From positions 1 to 39,425 of the forward strand of contig CANQFZ010000016.1 of the NCBI GenBank assembly GCA_947600065.1: DNA of 39,425 nt, read 5' to 3'. Both the position numbers and the translations under genes were made by a program. The DNA is from an uncultured Clostridia bacterium (GTDB lineage: Bacteria > Bacillota > Clostridia > Oscillospirales > Ruminococcaceae). The number at the start of each line of letters is the position of its first letter. Position 1 is the first letter of the stretch. Under the pieces are notes generated by a model. That model made no database searches, was not told where the DNA came from, and worked only from the letters and a program-made list of their open reading frames with translations. Shown in pieces: positions 1 to 39,425 of the stretch.

Positions 1-453
1 AACTCTAACCTCTTATCTCTAATTTCTTACCTCTAGAAGGGGAAGGGGGAGAGTGCGGGGCGCTGAGCGCGCCCTGCCCTTTTAGATGTAAGAGGTAAGA
101 AGTCAAAGGTAGTTTGAGATATAAGGTAATTTGACTTTCAGAGAAAGAGACTAGAGACTAGAACACTCACGAAAATCGGATAACCTCTCCTCTAAAACTC
201 TAACCTCTTATCTCTAATTTCTTACCTCTAGAAGGGGAAGGGGGAGAGTGCGGGGCGCTGAGCGCGCCCTGCGACCCGCTGTTGGCAGTTGACATTACAT
301 TATGTACAGTATTCAGTAACAGTCGAACAGTTGTCCGATGAATTTAACATTTATAAAAATAAGAGGTAAGAAATGAGCGAACAACCGTTTAATACAAATT
401 CTAACCTCTAACTTCTAGACCCTGAAAAGAAACTTTTTATTTAGACAGAATAA
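1..453. repeat. Gene-free repeat island at the left end
   Basis: No credible gene is seen here. A 77-base segment at 1-77 is repeated identically at 196-272; because the window starts at base 1 the first copy may extend further left. The segment ends in a short GC hairpin (GGGCGC/GCGCCC at 58-74 and again at 253-269). Between the copies, 84-162 is a partial plus-strand copy of the purine-rich repeat seen around 18.6, 24.3 and 33.3 kb (GTAAGAGGTAAGAA ... CAGAGAAAGAG ... CTAGA), without its inner GCGCATTATCCGCC hairpin. Further TAAGAGGTAAGAA / TTCTAACCTCTAAC fragments lie at about 361-417. No target-site duplication or transposase was recognised. Confidence 0.85.
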
Positions 454-18209: not shown

Positions 18210-18245
18210 ACAAAAAATTGTGCGGGATTTTTCTCCCGCACAATT
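18210..18245 (-). terminator. Minus-strand intrinsic terminator without an adjacent gene
   Basis: A perfect 12-pair stem (18216-18227 with 18234-18245) with a 6-base loop, followed on the minus strand by TTTTTTG. The nearest upstream gene on that strand ends at 18728, 480 bases away beyond the repeat island. It either ends the polyamine transcript late or ends a small RNA made from the island. Confidence 0.75.
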
Positions 18246-18360
18246 CAGGTTGTATATAAAGTCTTAACAAGGTTCGCTAAGTTGTCACTGTTGAATAACT
18301 TTAGACAATTATATTTTACGCTCTGTTGTAAAATTCATTTTTAAGGTAGTTCCCCGCTCT

Positions 18361-18535
18361 GCACCTCTCCTAGGATTGTCGTTTCAAAGCACGGCTTTGA
18401 AACGACAATGCGGGGAAAACTCTTGTTTTCCCCGCACCCTTTAGCGCCTTGTGCCGTTTGCGGGGACGGAGTCCCCGCACCCCTGCCGGAGGGCAAAAAT
18501 TTTTTGAAAAAAATTTTTTCCCTCCGGACTCCCTT
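18361..18535. repeat. Hairpin cluster of the composite intergenic repeat (copy at 18.4 kb)
   Basis: Four successive hairpins: 18375-18409 (16 perfect pairs, stem ATTGTCGTTTCAAAGC, 3-base loop); 18409-18436 (stem TGCGGGGAAAAC); 18460-18478 (stem GCGGGGAC); 18486-18527 (CCGGAGGG/CCCTCCGG around an A/T tract). The first two recur at 39353-39417. The A/T hairpin and the TTTTTTGAAAAGGG stretch recur in inverted orientation at 33130-33190. Confidence 0.85.
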
Positions 18536-18606
18536 TTCAAAAAACTTTCGTGCGACGCCCGTTAGGTGGTTTGAATTTTAAACGTTGTTCGCCGACCAAA
18601 ACTTAT

Positions 18607-18725
18607 TCTAGCCTCTTGCCTCTTTTTCTGAAAACCAAATAACTTTTACGCTCAAAAGTTCCCCGAATTTCTTACCTCTTACAGCGTTATCCGCCGTAAG
18701 GCGGATAATGCGCTTACACTCTTAC
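18607..18725 (-). repeat. Purine-rich intergenic repeat, copy 1 (minus orientation)
   Basis: Read on the minus strand: TAGAAGTAAGAGTGTAAGCG, an inner hairpin (GCGCATTATCCGCC, TTAC, GGCGGATAACGC), then GTAAGAGGTAAGAA, a TTTTGAG...TTATTTGGTTTTCAG stretch, and AAAGAGGCAAGAGGCTAGAA. Near-identical copies are at 33287-33420 (+) and 33446-33575 (-), with partial or divergent copies at 84-162 and 24290-24475. It ends three bases before the 18728 gene's stop codon. Confidence 0.85.
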
Positions 18726-18727
18726 TT

Positions 18728-19369
18728 CTAACAGCTAAACTCGTTATTCTTCACGAAAAAGAACCTGACAAACTCTCCCTTTACAAGCTCTGCGACTGCG
18801 AATGTATGCGTTTCCTCGGAAAAATTCAACGAATATTCGCGGCTGAGTTTCGGATTATACTCTATTTTGTCAAGGTCTACCCCGTTTTCAATAAGCAACC
18901 GCACCGCGTCCTCGGGCTTGTCCGCTATGACCGCGGTCTTCATCTTCAAAAGCAGATTGCATATCATGACCTTTATAAGCTCGCTTATGATATCGTCCGA
19001 GGGCAGGACCTTTGTTTTCCCCTGTGCGTCAAGTTTTATAAGGAATATCCGAGGGTCTTCCGATGCTTCGTTCTTTACCGCTATCTGAAACTCGCCTATC
19101 CGTCCTATACACAAAAGCGAAAGCTCCGTTTTTCCTGCGGCAAACTTCATAACTGTCATTAAATTCGGGTGGAAGAACCTTAAACTCCCGCCCTGTCTGT
19201 TTACGGGCAAATATGCGTATTTCGACAAAAATTCCTTCAGCAAAAACGGCACAACGATACCTCGGCTGTTTTCGTTCAGCTCAAAATCGTTTTTGGTAAA
19301 ACCGTCCGTTATGCCGCCGTAAATGGTCTGCAATGCGGGGAGCGGTTTCATATTATACTGCACTGACAT
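18728..19369 (-). CDS. Unknown protein, last gene of the polyamine locus
   Basis: A 213-residue, probably soluble protein with no TM helix or signal peptide that I can see. I do not recognise the family. It begins with MSVQYNMKPLPALQTIYGGI and ends FVRFFFVKNNEFSC; the middle is mixed alpha/beta with an acidic helix (EDAVRLLIENGVDLDKI). The ATG at 19369 follows the nspC stop by 4 bases, with AAAGG overlapping the end of nspC, so it is co-transcribed and probably coupled to carboxynorspermidine decarboxylase. A role linked to polyamines is suggested only by position. Its stop codon lies directly against repeat copy 1. Confidence 0.75.
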   Translation of the reverse strand: MSVQYNMKPLPALQTIYGGITDGFTKNDFELNENSRGIVVPFLLKEFLSKYAYLPVNRQGGSLRFFHPNLMTVMKFAAGKTELSLLCIGRIGEFQIAVKNEASEDPRIFLIKLDAQGKTKVLPSDDIISELIKVMICNLLLKMKTAVIADKPEDAVRLLIENGVDLDKIEYNPKLSREYSLNFSEETHTFAVAELVKGEFVRFFFVKNNEFSC

Positions 19370-24289: not shown

Positions 24290-24475
24290 TATCAGAGGTT
24301 AGATATTAGCGCATTATGCGCTCCGCGCAAAACGCTGCAAGAGGTAAGAGTTGAGGTCAAACGTGATTTTCCTGTTTAGAGTACATTTAGGTCATTGCTG
24401 CTCAAACAACATTATTTGGTTAAAGTTGATTTGGTTTCAACTCTTACCTCTTACTTCTTACTTCTTATCTCTATC
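24290..24475. repeat. Divergent repeat copies inside the polyamine locus
   Basis: A left part in plus orientation (AGAGGTTAGATATTAGCGCA, then an altered inner hairpin TTATGCGC/GCGCAAAA and AAGAGGTAAGAG) and a right part in inverted orientation ending ACCTCTTACTTCTTACTTCT. The last gene upstream on the minus strand (24471-25061) takes its TAG stop from the edge of this repeat. The copy divides the speA-side genes from speE. Confidence 0.7.
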
Positions 24476-31568: not shown

Positions 31569-32330
31569 ATGGAAGACGTACTGAAAATAGGCAAAAAGGA
31601 GTTTCACTCGCGGTTTATACTGGGCAGCGGAAAGTTTGATCTTGACCTTATAAATGCGGCTGTACAGAATGCGGGCGCGGAGATAATAACGCTTGCATTG
31701 CGCAGAGTGAACAGTTTTACGGGGAATATTCTCGAACATATCCCGAAGGGAGTTACATTGCTTCCGAATACATCGGGAGCAAGAAATGCGGAAGAAGCCG
31801 TTAAAATAGCAAAGCTTGCGCGCGAGGCTGGCTGCGGAGAATTTATAAAGATCGAAGTCATTCACGACTCGAAATATCTTCTCCCCGACAACTACGAAAC
31901 GGCGAAGGCTTGCGAGCTGCTGGCAAAAGAGGGATTTACGCCTATGCCGTATATGTACCCCGACTTGTATGCGGCGCGCGATATGAAAAACGCAGGCGCG
32001 GCGGCTATAATGCCGCTTGCCGCTCCGATAGGTTCTAATAAGGGACTTTCCACAAAGGAATTTATCCGTATTCTTATAGAGGAAATTGATCTGCCGATAA
32101 TCGTAGACGCGGGCATTGGCAGACCGTCGCAGGCGTGCGAGGCTATGGAAATGGGCGCGGCAGCTGTTATGGCGAACACCGCTATTGCGACTGCGGGGAA
32201 TATCGTTCAGATGGCGGAGGCTTTCAAAAACGCGATAAACGCAGGGCGCGGGGCTTATCTTGCGGGACTTGGAAGAGTTCTGGACAGGGCGTCGGCTAGC
32301 TCGCCGCTTACGGGATTTATAAACGACTGA
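31569..32330 (+). CDS. thiG: Thiazole synthase (ThiG)
   Basis: A 253-residue TIM-barrel enzyme that builds thiazole phosphate for thiamine from deoxyxylulose 5-phosphate, dehydroglycine and ThiS-thiocarboxylate. [12 protein letters not shown] and [15 protein letters not shown] are typical; the Schiff-base lysine is Lys94 in [45 protein letters not shown] is the phosphate site. Length matches ThiG. No thiS, thiF, thiH or thiO and no TPP riboswitch is visible nearby. It lies 18 bases after metF and overlaps the next gene by one base, so it is embedded in a methionine/one-carbon operon. Confidence 0.93.
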
Positions 32331-33004
32331 TGAATGAAATTAAGATTGACCGCGAAAACGCATACAGGTATATGGGTTTTCGCGAGCCTTTTTCGGAGAA
32401 TGTTGACGAAAAGACAGCCGAGGCAGTCGATAAAATTGAACAAGAACTGCTTAAAGCGGTAAAGCCTAAGTTTATCTGGCGGGTTTTTGATATCATAAGG
32501 GACAACGGGCTGTTTCTAAGCGGCTGTGATTTTGAGCTTTCGGGAAATGATATCAAAAAACATCTGTCGGGCTGCGATAAAGCGGCAATTGTCTGCTCGA
32601 CATTGTCTGCGGACTGCGATAAATTTATAGCGAAGATGAGCGTAAGGGGCGCGCTTGAAATGCTCGTGAGCGACGCGCTGGCGAGCGCGTATATTGAGCA
32701 GATAAGCGACGGCGCGGTAAAAGACCTCACGAAAAAAAACGAGGGCTTTTCGGCGACATGGGTTTTCGGCGCGGGTTATGGGGATTTTCCGCTCGATATC
32801 CTGCCGAAGCTGATTACGGCAGTTGACGGGGTGCGGAAAATCGGCGTTTCCACGACTGCCGCGAATACTCTTGCTCCGACAAAGTCTATTGTAGGCGTGG
32901 CGGGGCTGTCGCGCGAAAAAAAAGTCGTCACGGAAAAGTCGTGTGACAATTGCATTATGCGGGATAAATGCGAGTTTCGAAAAAACGGGGAAAGGTGCTT
33001 ATAA
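32330..33004 (+). CDS. Methionine synthase activation-domain protein (B12 reactivation)
   Basis: A 224-residue stand-alone version of the MetH C-terminal activation domain, which reactivates cob(II)alamin by reductive methylation with SAM. Recognisable parts are YRYMGFREP at the start, the GAGYGDFPLDILPKL region (about 148-163) matching the family's RxxPGYGD motif, and a Cys-rich tail CDNCIMRDKCEFRK common to clostridial members. The Arg that normally starts the SAM-binding motif appears to be Val here, so activity should be tested. The ATG overlaps the thiG stop (TGATG). The rest of MetH must be encoded elsewhere. Confidence 0.85.
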   Translation: MNEIKIDRENAYRYMGFREPFSENVDEKTAEAVDKIEQELLKAVKPKFIWRVFDIIRDNGLFLSGCDFELSGNDIKKHLSGCDKAAIVCSTLSADCDKFIAKMSVRGALEMLVSDALASAYIEQISDGAVKDLTKKNEGFSATWVFGAGYGDFPLDILPKLITAVDGVRKIGVSTTAANTLAPTKSIVGVAGLSREKKVVTEKSCDNCIMRDKCEFRKNGERCL

Positions 33005-33286
33005 GGCACTAAGACGTGCAAGGGGAAAAACCCATCTAGAGGCTAGGGGTTAGAAGTTAGAGGCTAGAAACTGTTCTGAGCGGCGGGGCGCGTTATCGTT
33101 TAAAACCACCAACCGGGCGGCGGCGCAGAAGTTTTTTGAAAAGGGTGTCCAGAGGAAAAAAATTTTTTTCAAAAAATTTTTTCCCTTTGGTCGCGGCGTA
33201 AGCCGCGAAACGGCGCTAGCTAAGCGCATCAGGTTAAATGCCTTCGGCATTGAACCTGGGATGCGGGGAAAACAAGAGTTTTCCCT

Positions 33287-33420
33287 TCTAGAGGTTAGAA
33301 TGTAAGCGCATTATCCGCCTCACGGCGGATAACGCTGTAAGAAGTAAGAAATCAAAGGTTGTTTTGGAGATAAAGTTATTTGGTTTTCAGAGAAAGAGGC
33401 AAGAGGCTAGAGTTTAAAAG
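33287..33420 (+). repeat. Purine-rich intergenic repeat, copy 2
   Basis: Plus orientation: CTAGAGGTTAGAATGTAAGC, inner hairpin 33306-33335 (CATTATCCGCC, TCAC, GGCGGATAACG), GTAAGAAGTAAGAAATC, a TTATTTGGTTTTCAG stretch and AAAGAGGCAAGAGGCTAGAG. It forms the left arm of a long imperfect palindrome with copy 3. Confidence 0.85.
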
Positions 33421-33445
33421 GAAAAGTTGTTTTCCGCTCAAAACA

Positions 33446-33575
33446 AATTCTAGCATCTAGCTTCTTCTTTTGATAACCAAAAAACTTTAAATCTCAAAAG
33501 CTCCCCTAAATTCTTACCTCTTACAGCGTTATCCGCCGTAAGGCGGATAATGCGCTTACATTCTTACTTCTAGCA
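33446..33575 (-). repeat. Purine-rich intergenic repeat, copy 3 (inverted)
   Basis: Minus orientation copy, 26 bases from copy 2. The first ~60 bases of copies 2 and 3 differ at only a few positions; the remainder is about three-quarters identical by eye. The inner hairpin is at about 33527-33556. Confidence 0.85.
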
Positions 33576-33589
33576 GGGGTTTTCCCCGC

Positions 33590-33624
33590 ATTGCCGTTTC
33601 AAAACAAAGTTTTGAAACGGCAAT
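33590..33624. repeat. 16-pair covarying hairpin (third copy)
   Basis: Stem ATTGCCGTTTCAAAAC (33590-33605), loop AAA, complementary arm 33609-33624. It is the counterpart of 18375-18409 and 39353-39387; the base changes relative to those copies are matched in the opposite arm. It is flanked by a short GGGG/CCCC hairpin as in the other copies. Confidence 0.85.
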
Positions 33625-33803: not shown

Positions 33804-35666
33804 TCAGCGTTTCTTTCTTGAAATAACAACTGCCGCGCCTGCAAGGGCAATAACGCCGAGAGTAAGTGAAAGCCCTGCAACGCCTGTGTCGGGAGAGGTT
33901 GTGCCGCTGTTTGAAGAATTGCTGTCGGTAGAAGTTTCGCTGTCGGTGCTTGTTTCGCTGTCCGAAGGCTCGCTTTCAATAGCGCCCTCTACTTTTTCTG
34001 ATGTTACAACATATTCGCTAAAGTGGTCGGTTTCAAAAATAATGTTGCCGTTTTCGTCAATTGAAGCGTTCATGTCGTAATATTTTCCGTTAAGAATGTG
34101 GTAAACATAGATTTTAGCAAGCTTTTTAAGTGGTTCGGGAACAGGAATTTTTATTGTAACTTTTCCATTAGGCTGAACTTCCTTTTCGCCGTTCTTAAAG
34201 GAAATATCAAAACCGAAGCTGTTTTCATTGTCGGTCTTTTCCTCAACGGGCGTTACTGTAAGTACCGAGCCTTCTTCTATCACGCCTTCTTCGGTAGAAG
34301 CGGTAACGCCGGTTTTATCGTCGGCAGTGTATTCAACAGTAGGTTTCACTTCGGGGTCAGCGGATTTAAAGTGGATTGTGGCATTAGCAAAAACATCTGA
34401 AGGAGCTGCGTCTGTTTCATTTCCTAAAGAGTCGGTAATTATTATTTTATCCCATTGCTCCTTTGTGTCATTAAAATATACATCATTAAGCTTAGAATCC
34501 TGAGCAAATGCATATCTTTCCATTTTAGTAACGCTGTTCGGAATATCTACTCTGGTCAGGTTTGGACAAAATCCAAAAGCTCTTCTGCCTATTTCCGTAA
34601 TAGAATCAGGCAAAGTTACGCTTGTAATGCCGGAACCGTTGAAAATGTCCCTGGCAAGCTTAGTAATGCTATTAGGTATTTCTATACTTGTTAAATTTGT
34701 ACACTGACTGAAAGCTGACTCGCCTATTGATGTCACACTATCGGGAATAGTTATATTTTTCAGAGTTTTATTATTGTTAAAAACTCTTTCGCATATTTTT
34801 GTTACGTTGTCGGGTATAACAACATTTTCATCTGTACAAGTTTCTGCATCAATCAAAACGCCGTTTACAATAACGAGTGAGTTTTCTTCACGTTTACTAT
34901 CAAGCCATGGCGTACTGCTAAAAGGATTATATTCAAATCCAGTGAAGCTTTCGGGAATAACAATATCTGTAAGTTCAGAACAATTTGCCAAAGCACCAGA
35001 CCCTATTTTCTGAATACCTTCGGGTATGACAATACTTGTAATAGCAAGACCCGATAAACCGCTTTCGCCAATTTCAGTCAAGCTGTCCGGCAATGTAATA
35101 TTGTATAGATTAAGGTTGCCGTTGATTGCCCAATCGGCTATTATCTTTGTCCCTTCGGGAACGGAATAATCGTGTTCTGCCCTTTCATTAGGATATTGAA
35201 TAAGTTCGGTTTTGTCTTTATTGAATAATACTCCGTCGATAGAAGAAAAATATTTGTTATCCTCCGAAACATATATTTCTTCAATTCCGCCATATTCCAT
35301 TCCGTAGGTTTCAATTGTTGTTATATTTTCAGAAAGAGTTATTGATCTTATACTCCAAGAATTTATAAATGCATCGCTTCCGATAGAAGTAACTTTTCTT
35401 CCGTTTACTTCTGCGGGAATTTCCAGATCATATTTATCAGGATATGTTACTTCTTTGTGAAAATCGTCGTATGCTTCAGCTACACCGACAACTTTATAGG
35501 TTCCGTCGTCAAGCAACTCGTACTTAAATGCATCGTCTGTATAATTTTTGTCTTCTTCGGAAATTTCCTCTACGCTTTGTGCTGATACCGTCGGAAAATA
35601 CTTGACGGCTGGCGTTGCCATAAGTGCGCCCGCCAAAAGGATTGCGCTTAGTTTTTTGATTTTCAT
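33804..35666 (-). CDS. BspA-type leucine-rich-repeat surface protein with sortase signal
   Basis: A 620-residue secreted protein. Signal peptide MKIKKLSAILLAGALMATPA, then about 330 residues of BspA-like LRR_5 repeats (units such as NITIPDSVTSIGESAFSQCT, SVTLPDSITEIGRRAFGFCP), a beta-rich domain, a Ser/Thr/Asp-rich linker (ETSTDSETSTDSNSSNSG) and a cell-wall anchor: SPDTG (about 591-595), hydrophobic helix and SRKKR tail. SPDTG is a variant LPXTG signal of the type seen in Oscillospiraceae. The ATG at 35666 has GGAGG upstream; the longer open frame lacks a signal peptide at its start. The function is probably adhesion or binding. It has its own promoter, structured leader and terminator. Confidence 0.92.
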   Translation of the reverse strand: MKIKKLSAILLAGALMATPAVKYFPTVSAQSVEEISEEDKNYTDDAFKYELLDDGTYKVVGVAEAYDDFHKEVTYPDKYDLEIPAEVNGRKVTSIGSDAFINSWSIRSITLSENITTIETYGMEYGGIEEIYVSEDNKYFSSIDGVLFNKDKTELIQYPNERAEHDYSVPEGTKIIADWAINGNLNLYNITLPDSLTEIGESGLSGLAITSIVIPEGIQKIGSGALANCSELTDIVIPESFTGFEYNPFSSTPWLDSKREENSLVIVNGVLIDAETCTDENVVIPDNVTKICERVFNNNKTLKNITIPDSVTSIGESAFSQCTNLTSIEIPNSITKLARDIFNGSGITSVTLPDSITEIGRRAFGFCPNLTRVDIPNSVTKMERYAFAQDSKLNDVYFNDTKEQWDKIIITDSLGNETDAAPSDVFANATIHFKSADPEVKPTVEYTADDKTGVTASTEEGVIEEGSVLTVTPVEEKTDNENSFGFDISFKNGEKEVQPNGKVTIKIPVPEPLKKLAKIYVYHILNGKYYDMNASIDENGNIIFETDHFSEYVVTSEKVEGAIESEPSDSETSTDSETSTDSNSSNSGTTSPDTGVAGLSLTLGVIALAGAAVVISRKKR

Positions 35667-35723
35667 TTTGATCCTCCGTTTCTTTTTGCGGTATAATGTT
35701 ATTTTTCCCGCGCAATTTTCCCG

Positions 35724-35757
35724 CAAAAACAAAAAGTGCGCAACCGAAGCCGCGCAC
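35724..35757 (-). promoter_or_regulatory. Terminator-like hairpin in the LRR gene leader (possible attenuator)
   Basis: On the minus strand GTGCGC, a 10-base loop, GCGCAC, then TTTTTGTTTTT. It lies between the LRR promoter and its ATG, about 57 bases upstream of the start. The 3' arm could also pair with a TGCGC sequence just downstream, giving an alternative fold. Attenuation is inferred; no known riboswitch class is recognised. Confidence 0.5.
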
Positions 35758-35782
35758 CGAAAAATGCACAACTCCGTTAGCC

Positions 35783-39344: not shown

Positions 39345-39425
39345 CTTTTAGGATTGCCTTTTCAAAGCACGGCTTTGAAAAGGCAATGCGGGGAAAACTC
39401 TTGTTTTCCCCGCACCCCAGATTCA
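39345..39425. repeat. Start of another hairpin repeat copy, cut by the window end
   Basis: A 16-pair hairpin (39353-39368 with 39372-39387, stem ATTGCCTTTTCAAAGC, loop ACG), then a GCGGGGAAAAC/GTTTTCCCCGC hairpin ending at about 39414 and a CACCCC flank. This has the order and orientation of 18371-18440, so the composite repeat probably continues beyond the window. Confidence 0.85.

Follow-up and report, generated by a model that had tools for sequence, protein, structure and literature searches.

What is the hairpin-rich DNA that fills the gap between a 213-aa gene and mraZ at 18361-18725, and how did it get there? The window studied here is a stretch of 39,425 nucleotides. It is contig 16 of a draft genome (handle G000) that totals 2.22 Mb and is split into 80 contigs. 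An earlier note on this DNA, made from the letters alone, described a hairpin-rich island at 18361-18725 on the minus strand and a colinear one at about 33035-33290 on the plus strand. Both are present, the second at 33035-33286, and their modules come in the same order. The first belongs to a composite that spans about 18343-18732. On the minus strand this composite starts with heptamers, an A1 hairpin, more heptamers, an R-type hairpin with the loop GAGCG, heptamers again and a left flank with a GGCGAACAACG stretch. The left flank is followed by the motif AAGTTTTTTGAAAAGGG, the palindrome B, a short GC hairpin, the motif K, the hairpins C1 and C2, and a right flank that carries the R motif. 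No open frame of at least 90 aa is listed between 17792 and 18728. Gene calls are longest open frames with no annotation, and module labels, terminator-like calls and module-repeat calls were made by eye (Table 1).

The second island consists of a heptamer array, the B motif with its hairpin, and the core. K is replaced there by another hairpin, and the core hairpin is truncated at its 3' edge, where it runs into heptamers (33265-33300). Partial copies had been reported elsewhere in the window, and they were confirmed at 81-163, 24441-24475, 33287-33623 and 39354-39411. The contig start has a 77-bp stretch with a five-heptamer array that is present twice, 195 bp apart, with 1-77 letter-identical to 196-272. 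A gene for a BspA-type leucine-rich repeat protein (33804-35771) adjoins the second island, and similar proteins recur near other islands.

Table 1. Parts of the islands and fragments in the window, with the strand on which each is read.
Feature	Positions	Strand	Remark
Two heptamers, GTTAGAA GTAAGAG	18719-18732	-	contain the stop TAG (18728-18730) of the 213-aa gene
A1 hairpin, GCGCATTATCCGCC-TTAC-GGCGGATAACGC, heptamers on either side	18684-18713	-	
Two heptamers, GTAAGAG GTAAGAA	18669-18682	-	
R-type hairpin, AACTTTT-GAGCG-TAAAAGTT, in module A2	18641-18660	-	GAGCGTAAAA at 18644-18653
Two heptamers, GCAAGAG GCTAGAA, left edge of the core unit	18606-18619	-	
B1 motif, AAGTTTTTTGAAAAGGG	18531-18547	-	
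B hairpin, long palindrome with A/T core, 42 bp	18486-18527	-	
Short GC hairpin, TGCGGGGAC-TCC-GTCCCCGCA; sequence varies among copies	18459-18479	-	by reading
K motif, GCGCTAAAGGG, conserved lead of the core hairpin	18437-18447	-	
C1, invariant core hairpin, GGGGAAAAC-AAGA-GTTTTCCCC	18412-18433	-	
C2, covarying palindrome	18376-18408	-	
Right flank with R motif (GAGCGGGGAA); imperfect direct repeat of the unit's left flank	18343-18369	-	
Terminator-like hairpin and T run, now beyond the island	18211-18246	-	by reading
Five-heptamer array, left edge of the second island	33035-33069	+	
B1 motif	33129-33145	+	
B hairpin	33149-33190	+	
Alternative lead hairpin (GCATCAGGTTAAATGCC...GGCATTGAACCTGG) replacing K	33226-33259	+	
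C1 cut at its 3' edge, heptamers directly after	33265-33286	+	
A1 hairpin	33306-33335	+	
A2 module and heptamers	33372-33412	+	
Inverted copy of module A (heptamers, A2, A1)	33448-33574	-	
C2 palindrome without full C1	33591-33623	+	
Fragment: heptamers, A2-like stretch, heptamers	81-163	+	
Five-heptamer array	198-232	-	also at 3-37, inside the identical 77-bp repeat
Five-heptamer array	24441-24475	-	contains the stop of a 196-aa gene (end 24471)
C2 palindrome	39354-39386	-	
C1, exact	39390-39411	-	14 bases from the contig end

The note had expected hundreds of copies in the genome. This holds for the heptamers, for which a 19-mer pattern has several hundred matches in the window's genome (476, control 1), and the core has roughly a hundred copies. 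With up to 3 mismatches allowed, the directional 22-nt core GGGGAAAACAAGAGTTTTCCCC matches the 2.2-Mb draft 118 times, 60 times forward and 58 times in reverse, and the reversed-pattern control has 0 matches. The listing of 100 core places contains 84 exact matches and 9 with a single mismatch. The B motif AAGTTTTTTGAAAAGGGNNTCCA has 67 matches genome-wide at up to 2 mismatches (control 0). BLAST against the own genome gave at least 116 matching pieces, with 40 of 260 candidates scored. Many contigs of this genome (e.g. 6, 18, 33, 38, 41, 51, 55, 61 and 77) end in or near repeat copies, so the true copy number may be higher.

At up to one mismatch the core is found in 20 of the 43 genomes of the genus, the window's own included, with 1 to 93 copies each. 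Several near-complete congeners have zero cores at this cut-off, and some of these carry other modules. In a sample of the family (396 genomes, 126 genera) seven members of the genus match and the core is absent from the 389 other genomes. In a sample of the order (394 genomes) three members of the genus match and the 391 genomes outside it have no core. The B motif was found in 0 of 45 other family genomes. A search with one protein of the window gave, as the closest named relatives found, MAGs of uncultured Clostridia and Oscillospiraceae, several of which come from isolates named Lapin. The hosts are one genus of uncultured Oscillospiraceae-like bacteria, probably of gut origin.

Rfam 15 gives nothing for the window at its gathering (curated) thresholds, and for 18250-18740 at E up to 1 it gives only a meaningless match, mir-4659 at E 0.99. 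A phage, plasmid or virus origin was rejected: the unit has no match in phage and plasmid collections, and the exact C1 has none in a collection of viral contigs. No paper with the C1 string was found in a search that most subscription papers lie outside. Among the matches listed for intergenic, palindromic or stem-loop repeats in the literature, none concerns these bacteria. PMC2267715 treats stem-loop families in 40 genomes, and the accessible part of it names none of this bacterial group. These are genuine islands of a large repeat family, and we take the family to be new, no description of it having been found in that search.

Three readings had been suggested for it: a mobile element, a structured RNA, or a nucleoid or boundary element like REP/BIME sequences. 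The order of the string is fixed as palindrome (B), short GC hairpin, K, invariant core hairpin (C1) and second palindrome (C2). Polarity and placement were counted at 101 core sites in 366,853 fetched bases of the window's genome, not at all 118. Within 260 bases, K or its replacement hairpin lies upstream of 91 of the 101 cores and downstream of 2. The corresponding counts of cores, upstream first, are 75 and 6 for B1, 48 and 17 for heptamers, and 14 and 52 for the D motif. In distant congeners K and C1 are kept and most other parts have changed. K is letter-identical at all but one of the congener sites displayed, and one copy in the congener G022 (L257) is without it.

The helices show strong covariation. 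There were 51 C modules after near-duplicates had been removed; 13 with other right ends or too much divergence were dropped by hand, and 38 were aligned. In this alignment 98.6% of the cells are paired and double changes occur in 12 of 25 pairs. The alignment has 82 double-change cells; shuffling gives 19.0, and sliding the partner gives 16 at most. C1 is nearly invariant, with 11 of its 12 pairs never changing. Only 3 of the 950 cells are G-U. C2 has 10 G-U and 7 A-C of 1561 pairs, from 113 stretches that were kept because they fold (score at least 8), so the paired fraction is high by construction and a few are other hairpins. For the B hairpin (58 units; 1076 Watson-Crick, 5 G-U, 1 A-C and 6 other of 1088 pairs) and the short hairpins (0 G-U and 0 A-C of 487 pairs in 59 hairpins, some of them parts of B) the stretches were chosen for folding, and only the ratio of G-U to A-C is informative. 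The count for B leans to G-U, but 5 versus 1 is too few to weigh.

Helices selected in an RNA of one strand would be expected to tolerate G-U but not A-C. Here G-U makes up less than 1% of the pairs and is hardly more frequent than A-C, a result that suits DNA hairpins or cruciforms, or RNA transcribed from both strands, better than an RNA made from one strand. Cores between co-directional genes show no strand preference either, with 19 in the direction of the genes and 17 opposite. By pair types, orientation and Rfam, a structured RNA read from one strand is disfavoured.

The unit lies between related sequences. In 72 of 109 units of the G000 type with a B motif the left flank aligns with the right (score at least 10), compared with 11 for the reverse complement and 7 for a shuffle. 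The best alignments cover the R motif, GTTTTGAGCGG.GAACAAC, which is found elsewhere as a hairpin (18641-18660). There are 98 gap architectures in the window's genome, and they are mosaics of palindromic modules in alternating orientation within intergenic gaps, which is the layout of BIMEs. Close pairs of cores (less than 1200 bp apart) are tail-to-tail in 10 cases, tandem in 6 and head-to-head in 0. In G022 there are six tail-to-tail dimers (L251-L256) with their cores 240-251 bp apart. Long strings of differing hairpins lie on both outer sides of these dimers. The C2 arms are mismatched in L229, L063 and L087, and those of L229 apparently come from two classes; such arms are a sign of recombination or mutation inside the hairpin. 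An alternative right end (CTGGAGGGGGAGCGGGG...) takes the place of the usual right flank of C2 in L011, L022, L026, L075, L085 and L208.

Cores avoid open frames, with 3 of 101 inside ORFs of at least 120 aa. They also avoid divergent gaps and favour convergent ones. A core occupies 17 of 28 convergent gaps, 30 of 86 co-directional gaps and 4 of 24 divergent gaps (P = 0.0018). With the ORF cut-off at 150 aa the counts are 17 of 26 convergent versus 4 of 19 divergent (P = 0.006).

Heptamer arrays mostly have 3 or 5 units. Within 100 bp of a stop codon 37 of them read with the gene versus 3 against, or 26 versus 3 when the stop lies outside the array; the zero-distance part of this bias is partly an artefact of ORF calling. 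Near start codons 0 read with the gene and 10 against. A function of the heptamers in RNA was our first idea. It was dropped, since the arrays also abut the starts of genes on the opposite strand (10 versus 0). The stops in all frames of an array prove nothing, as they follow from the period of 7 and the TAG in the unit. The simplest reading is that the arrays are the left edges of islands, reading inward. A second type of heptamer array (AGTTGAC, AGTTTAC, AGTGTAC...) has 56 arrays in the 366,853 fetched bases.

The same site can be compared among relatives. Downstream of the 224-aa gene (32330-33004) the window's genome has a 0.6-kb composite and G034 has one simple unit. In G041, G040 and G037 this site is empty, with only a terminator-like hairpin directly after the stop. 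The gene beyond the site is the same in G000, G041 and G037 and different in G034, and G040 has intervening genes (by eye). At the second site, the gap bounded by the 213-aa gene and mraZ, the window carries module A plus a core unit, L104 a core unit without A, and L103 two tandem units. Heptamers and an A2-like stretch, but no core unit, are present in L102, where the protein of the 213-aa gene is 97.6% identical. In L105, L107, L115, L117, L119 and L126 this gap is 438-533 bp long and the unit is absent. The terminator-like hairpin remains beyond the island at both sites. Some islands are conserved at their site between G000 and G041 or G040, so many copies are old. Other islands at shared sites differ by whole modules.

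The congener G022 offers another line of evidence. The set examined there was 25 single copies, one of which (L259) has a short left flank; the 12 cores of the six dimers were outside the test. Eight of the 25 (L258, L260, L263, L267, L268, L270, L271 and L275) are flanked on both sides by one and the same hairpin of 21-32 bp (score 17-28), and each site has its own hairpin. In the control, 1 of 600 left-right pairs across different sites reaches 15. The other 17 have no hairpin direct repeat. A common left motif marks a subfamily of 14 of the 25 sites; seven of the eight cases fall in it, and their right repeat begins 45-49 bp beyond C1. Across all eight, the element between the repeats measures 219-334 bp. 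At most of the eight copies its ends are inversely alike by eye, which makes them imperfect terminal inverted repeats; in L260 the 5' end is CAGGCCGTCGAAAAAGT and the 3' end, inverted, is CTGCTTGTCGAAAAAGT. The G022 end string is CAGNCCGTCGAAAAAGT. A long open frame ends 3-23 nt before the start of the left hairpin copy in seven of the eight cases and 79 nt before it in L260. A T run follows the right copy in the fashion of a terminator in at least four (L260, L267, L268 and L270), and the right copy in L258 and L263 is without one. From the sequences, the pattern looks like an insertion that duplicated a whole hairpin.

This pattern was sought in other genomes as well. In G021 none of the 12 sites with a left flank show hairpin repeats despite the same left motif (4 of the 16 sites have no left flank). 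No repeats of a host hairpin were found at 62 sites of G000 and 65 of G034, G040 and G041; the 4 and 9 repeats found there are modules of the family by inspection. Among 13 sites in other congeners, one (L192 in G031) has a 38-bp exact repeat around the core with a hairpin inside. It partly recurs in L185 and is probably a family module. The 26-bp repeat seen in L183 is the B palindrome of this species itself. The terminal repeat of G022 is not found at the ends of units in the window's genome: it has 16 matches in the 366,853 bases versus 2 in one shuffle, 7 of them inside B hairpins and the others with no evident relation to island ends. Thus the window's copies may move differently or be fixed.

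Mobile DNA is the most likely of the suggested readings. We argue that the islands are probably a non-autonomous, chromosome-borne mobile DNA element of one genus. The best reading of its behavior is that it inserts at hairpins, which it can duplicate, and that BIME-like mosaics were built from it in the window's genome. Within the row of hairpins that makes up its core, C1 and the lead GCGCTAAAGGG hardly vary in sequence, and the neighboring palindromes change yet stay self-complementary. A protein encoded elsewhere would probably recognize the lead and C1 as DNA. The element would land behind stop codons, at terminator-like or other hairpins. The target hairpin is seen in the sequence on both sides of some G022 copies, and from this we infer the act of insertion. 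The gene would keep an end hairpin afterwards, and the insertion would be tolerated. In the window's genome the unit lies between imperfect R repeats, is often edged by heptamers and occurs in tail-to-tail pairs. We infer that these mosaics were amplified from the product of an ancestral insertion into an R hairpin.

It is possible to go further, and we do so tentatively. The family may be a new class of non-autonomous element built from DNA hairpins, in which a protein reads C1 and the lead, insertion takes place at the foot of a target hairpin (typically a terminator), and the target is duplicated whole. The duplicates could become modules and the string could grow by repeated insertion. This would explain why the neighboring palindromes differ and are nearly perfect all the same. 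We hold this more doubtful than mobility itself.

The mobilizing enzyme could be an IS1182/IS1272-like transposase, which is a guess. The G022 ends may resemble those of IS1182 members; among the literature matches listed, no paper has the G022 end string together with IS1182. An all-against-all comparison of 277 ORFs of at least 120 aa near copies in the window's genome gave no group recognized as a transposase, and one recurrent protein was annotated, the leucine-rich repeat protein at 33804-35771. A Y1 transposase (PF01797) is absent from G000, G034, G040, G041, G031, G022 and G033. Four Y1 loci from G011, G021 and G037 have neither core nor K beside them. The search for a parent IS covered this Y1 family, and the islands may yet stem from the decay of an IS of another kind.

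It is worth considering how the family compares with known systems, as far as the accessible parts of the cited papers describe them. REP, BIME and REPIN sequences with their RAYTs (PMC3733652, PMC3116915) are likewise high-copy, non-autonomous intergenic palindromes that form inverted pairs and mosaics. They also lie mostly downstream of genes, in convergent or unidirectional gaps. REPINs are inverted doublets (PMC3116915), like the tail-to-tail pairs here. However, a REP is 20-40 bp long, and the unit here has several hairpins and a length of roughly 190-290 bp. Its conserved lead is GCGCTAAAGGG, and by reading no GTAG or CGTC tag was recognized next to a palindrome of 20-40 bp. No Y1 transposase is found here, which counts above all against GTAG REPs, as PMC3733652 describes CGTC REPs too as lacking a dedicated transposase. 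The likeness to REP/BIME sequences stands for the layout, and membership in the REP/RAYT system was rejected.

MITEs (PMC10969869) are also small, intergenic and without an open frame, and the G022 copies are MITE-like: eight of the 25 single ones have direct repeats of the target, and most of these eight have terminal inverted repeats that are imperfect and judged by eye. They differ in that the target repeat in G022 is a complete hairpin of 21-32 bp, and the units of the window's genome lack the G022 ends. IS1272 and IS1182 offer a parallel for the target, since theirs are inverted repeats of differing sequence (PMC5678879); Wan et al. 2017 also cite the IS1182 family, some members of which target palindromes. 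IS1272 has its own transposase (1.9 kb) and replaces the hairpin without duplicating it. One branch of the model in that paper (Fig. 13, pathway b) would duplicate the whole stem-loop, and the G022 copies resemble its outcome.

BOX has a modular build. Pneumococcal BOX, RUP and SPRITE are lineage-restricted, clustered and nested like the present family, and the authors judge all three parasitic (PMC3049150; clustering, PMC10969869). The TAACTGA arrays of Beggiatoaceae, Cyanobacteria and Bacteroidetes (PMC4679880) are intergenic arrays of 7-base units with few copies, as the heptamer arrays are. In the BOGUAY genome they lie just upstream of starts, whereas the GTTAGAG-type arrays here are at the 3' ends of genes and at island edges. 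The AGTTGAC-type arrays of the window's genome are similar in build to the published ones.

Several other explanations must be weighed. The family could be a domesticated 3'-UTR element or two-way terminator whose hairpins act in RNA of both strands, in termination or in protection of mRNA ends, and which spread because it is useful. This would account for the copies behind stop codons and in convergent gaps, and at two sites the element lies between the stop codon and a terminator-like hairpin. The rarity of G-U would also be expected if both strands were transcribed, and several G022 copies have a T run closely behind the C1 hairpin. However, the copies inspected in the window's genome have no T run after C1, C2 or B. 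The terminator-like hairpin persists beyond the island at the two sites. The same genes do without the element in relatives, and the number of copies runs from 0 to 93 across the genus, with none at up to one mismatch in several near-complete genomes. We consider this scenario rather unlikely. The same spread of core numbers makes the nucleoid role put forward by the earlier note unlikely. A broader form of that idea is that the islands are sites for a nucleoid, gyrase or replication-barrier protein that recognizes C1, with a function like that of BIMEs. C1 is conserved across the genus while its surroundings change, and the intergenic location and convergent-gap bias agree with such sites. 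Against this, 20 of 43 genomes is a patchy distribution, the copies are clustered and nested rather than spaced, and the conserved asymmetric AAGA loop would better fit recognition of a single strand. We judge it improbable.

One could also regard the islands as passive debris, old elements that are reshuffled only by homologous recombination, slippage and hairpin-templated correction and have no present mobility. The chimeric or mismatched C2 hairpins of L229, L063 and L087 agree with this, as do the module swaps at conserved sites, the several islands conserved between species and the restriction of host-hairpin repeats to G022. But recombination alone hardly fills an empty site, and it hardly makes hairpin repeats of 21-32 bp, differing in sequence, around single copies. 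This is the least probable of the explanations, and we give it very little credence.

A mobile element, on the reading we prefer, would add to the Clostridia an intergenic repeat family that is outside the REP/RAYT system. Its landing may be harmless by design, as the end hairpin of the gene is on both sides of the element in the G022 cases. The count of G-U against A-C pairs is a cheap way to tell hairpins in DNA from those of a one-strand RNA, and it can be used on other repeat families. The repeats at many contig ends also mean that the family matters for assembling the genomes of these bacteria.
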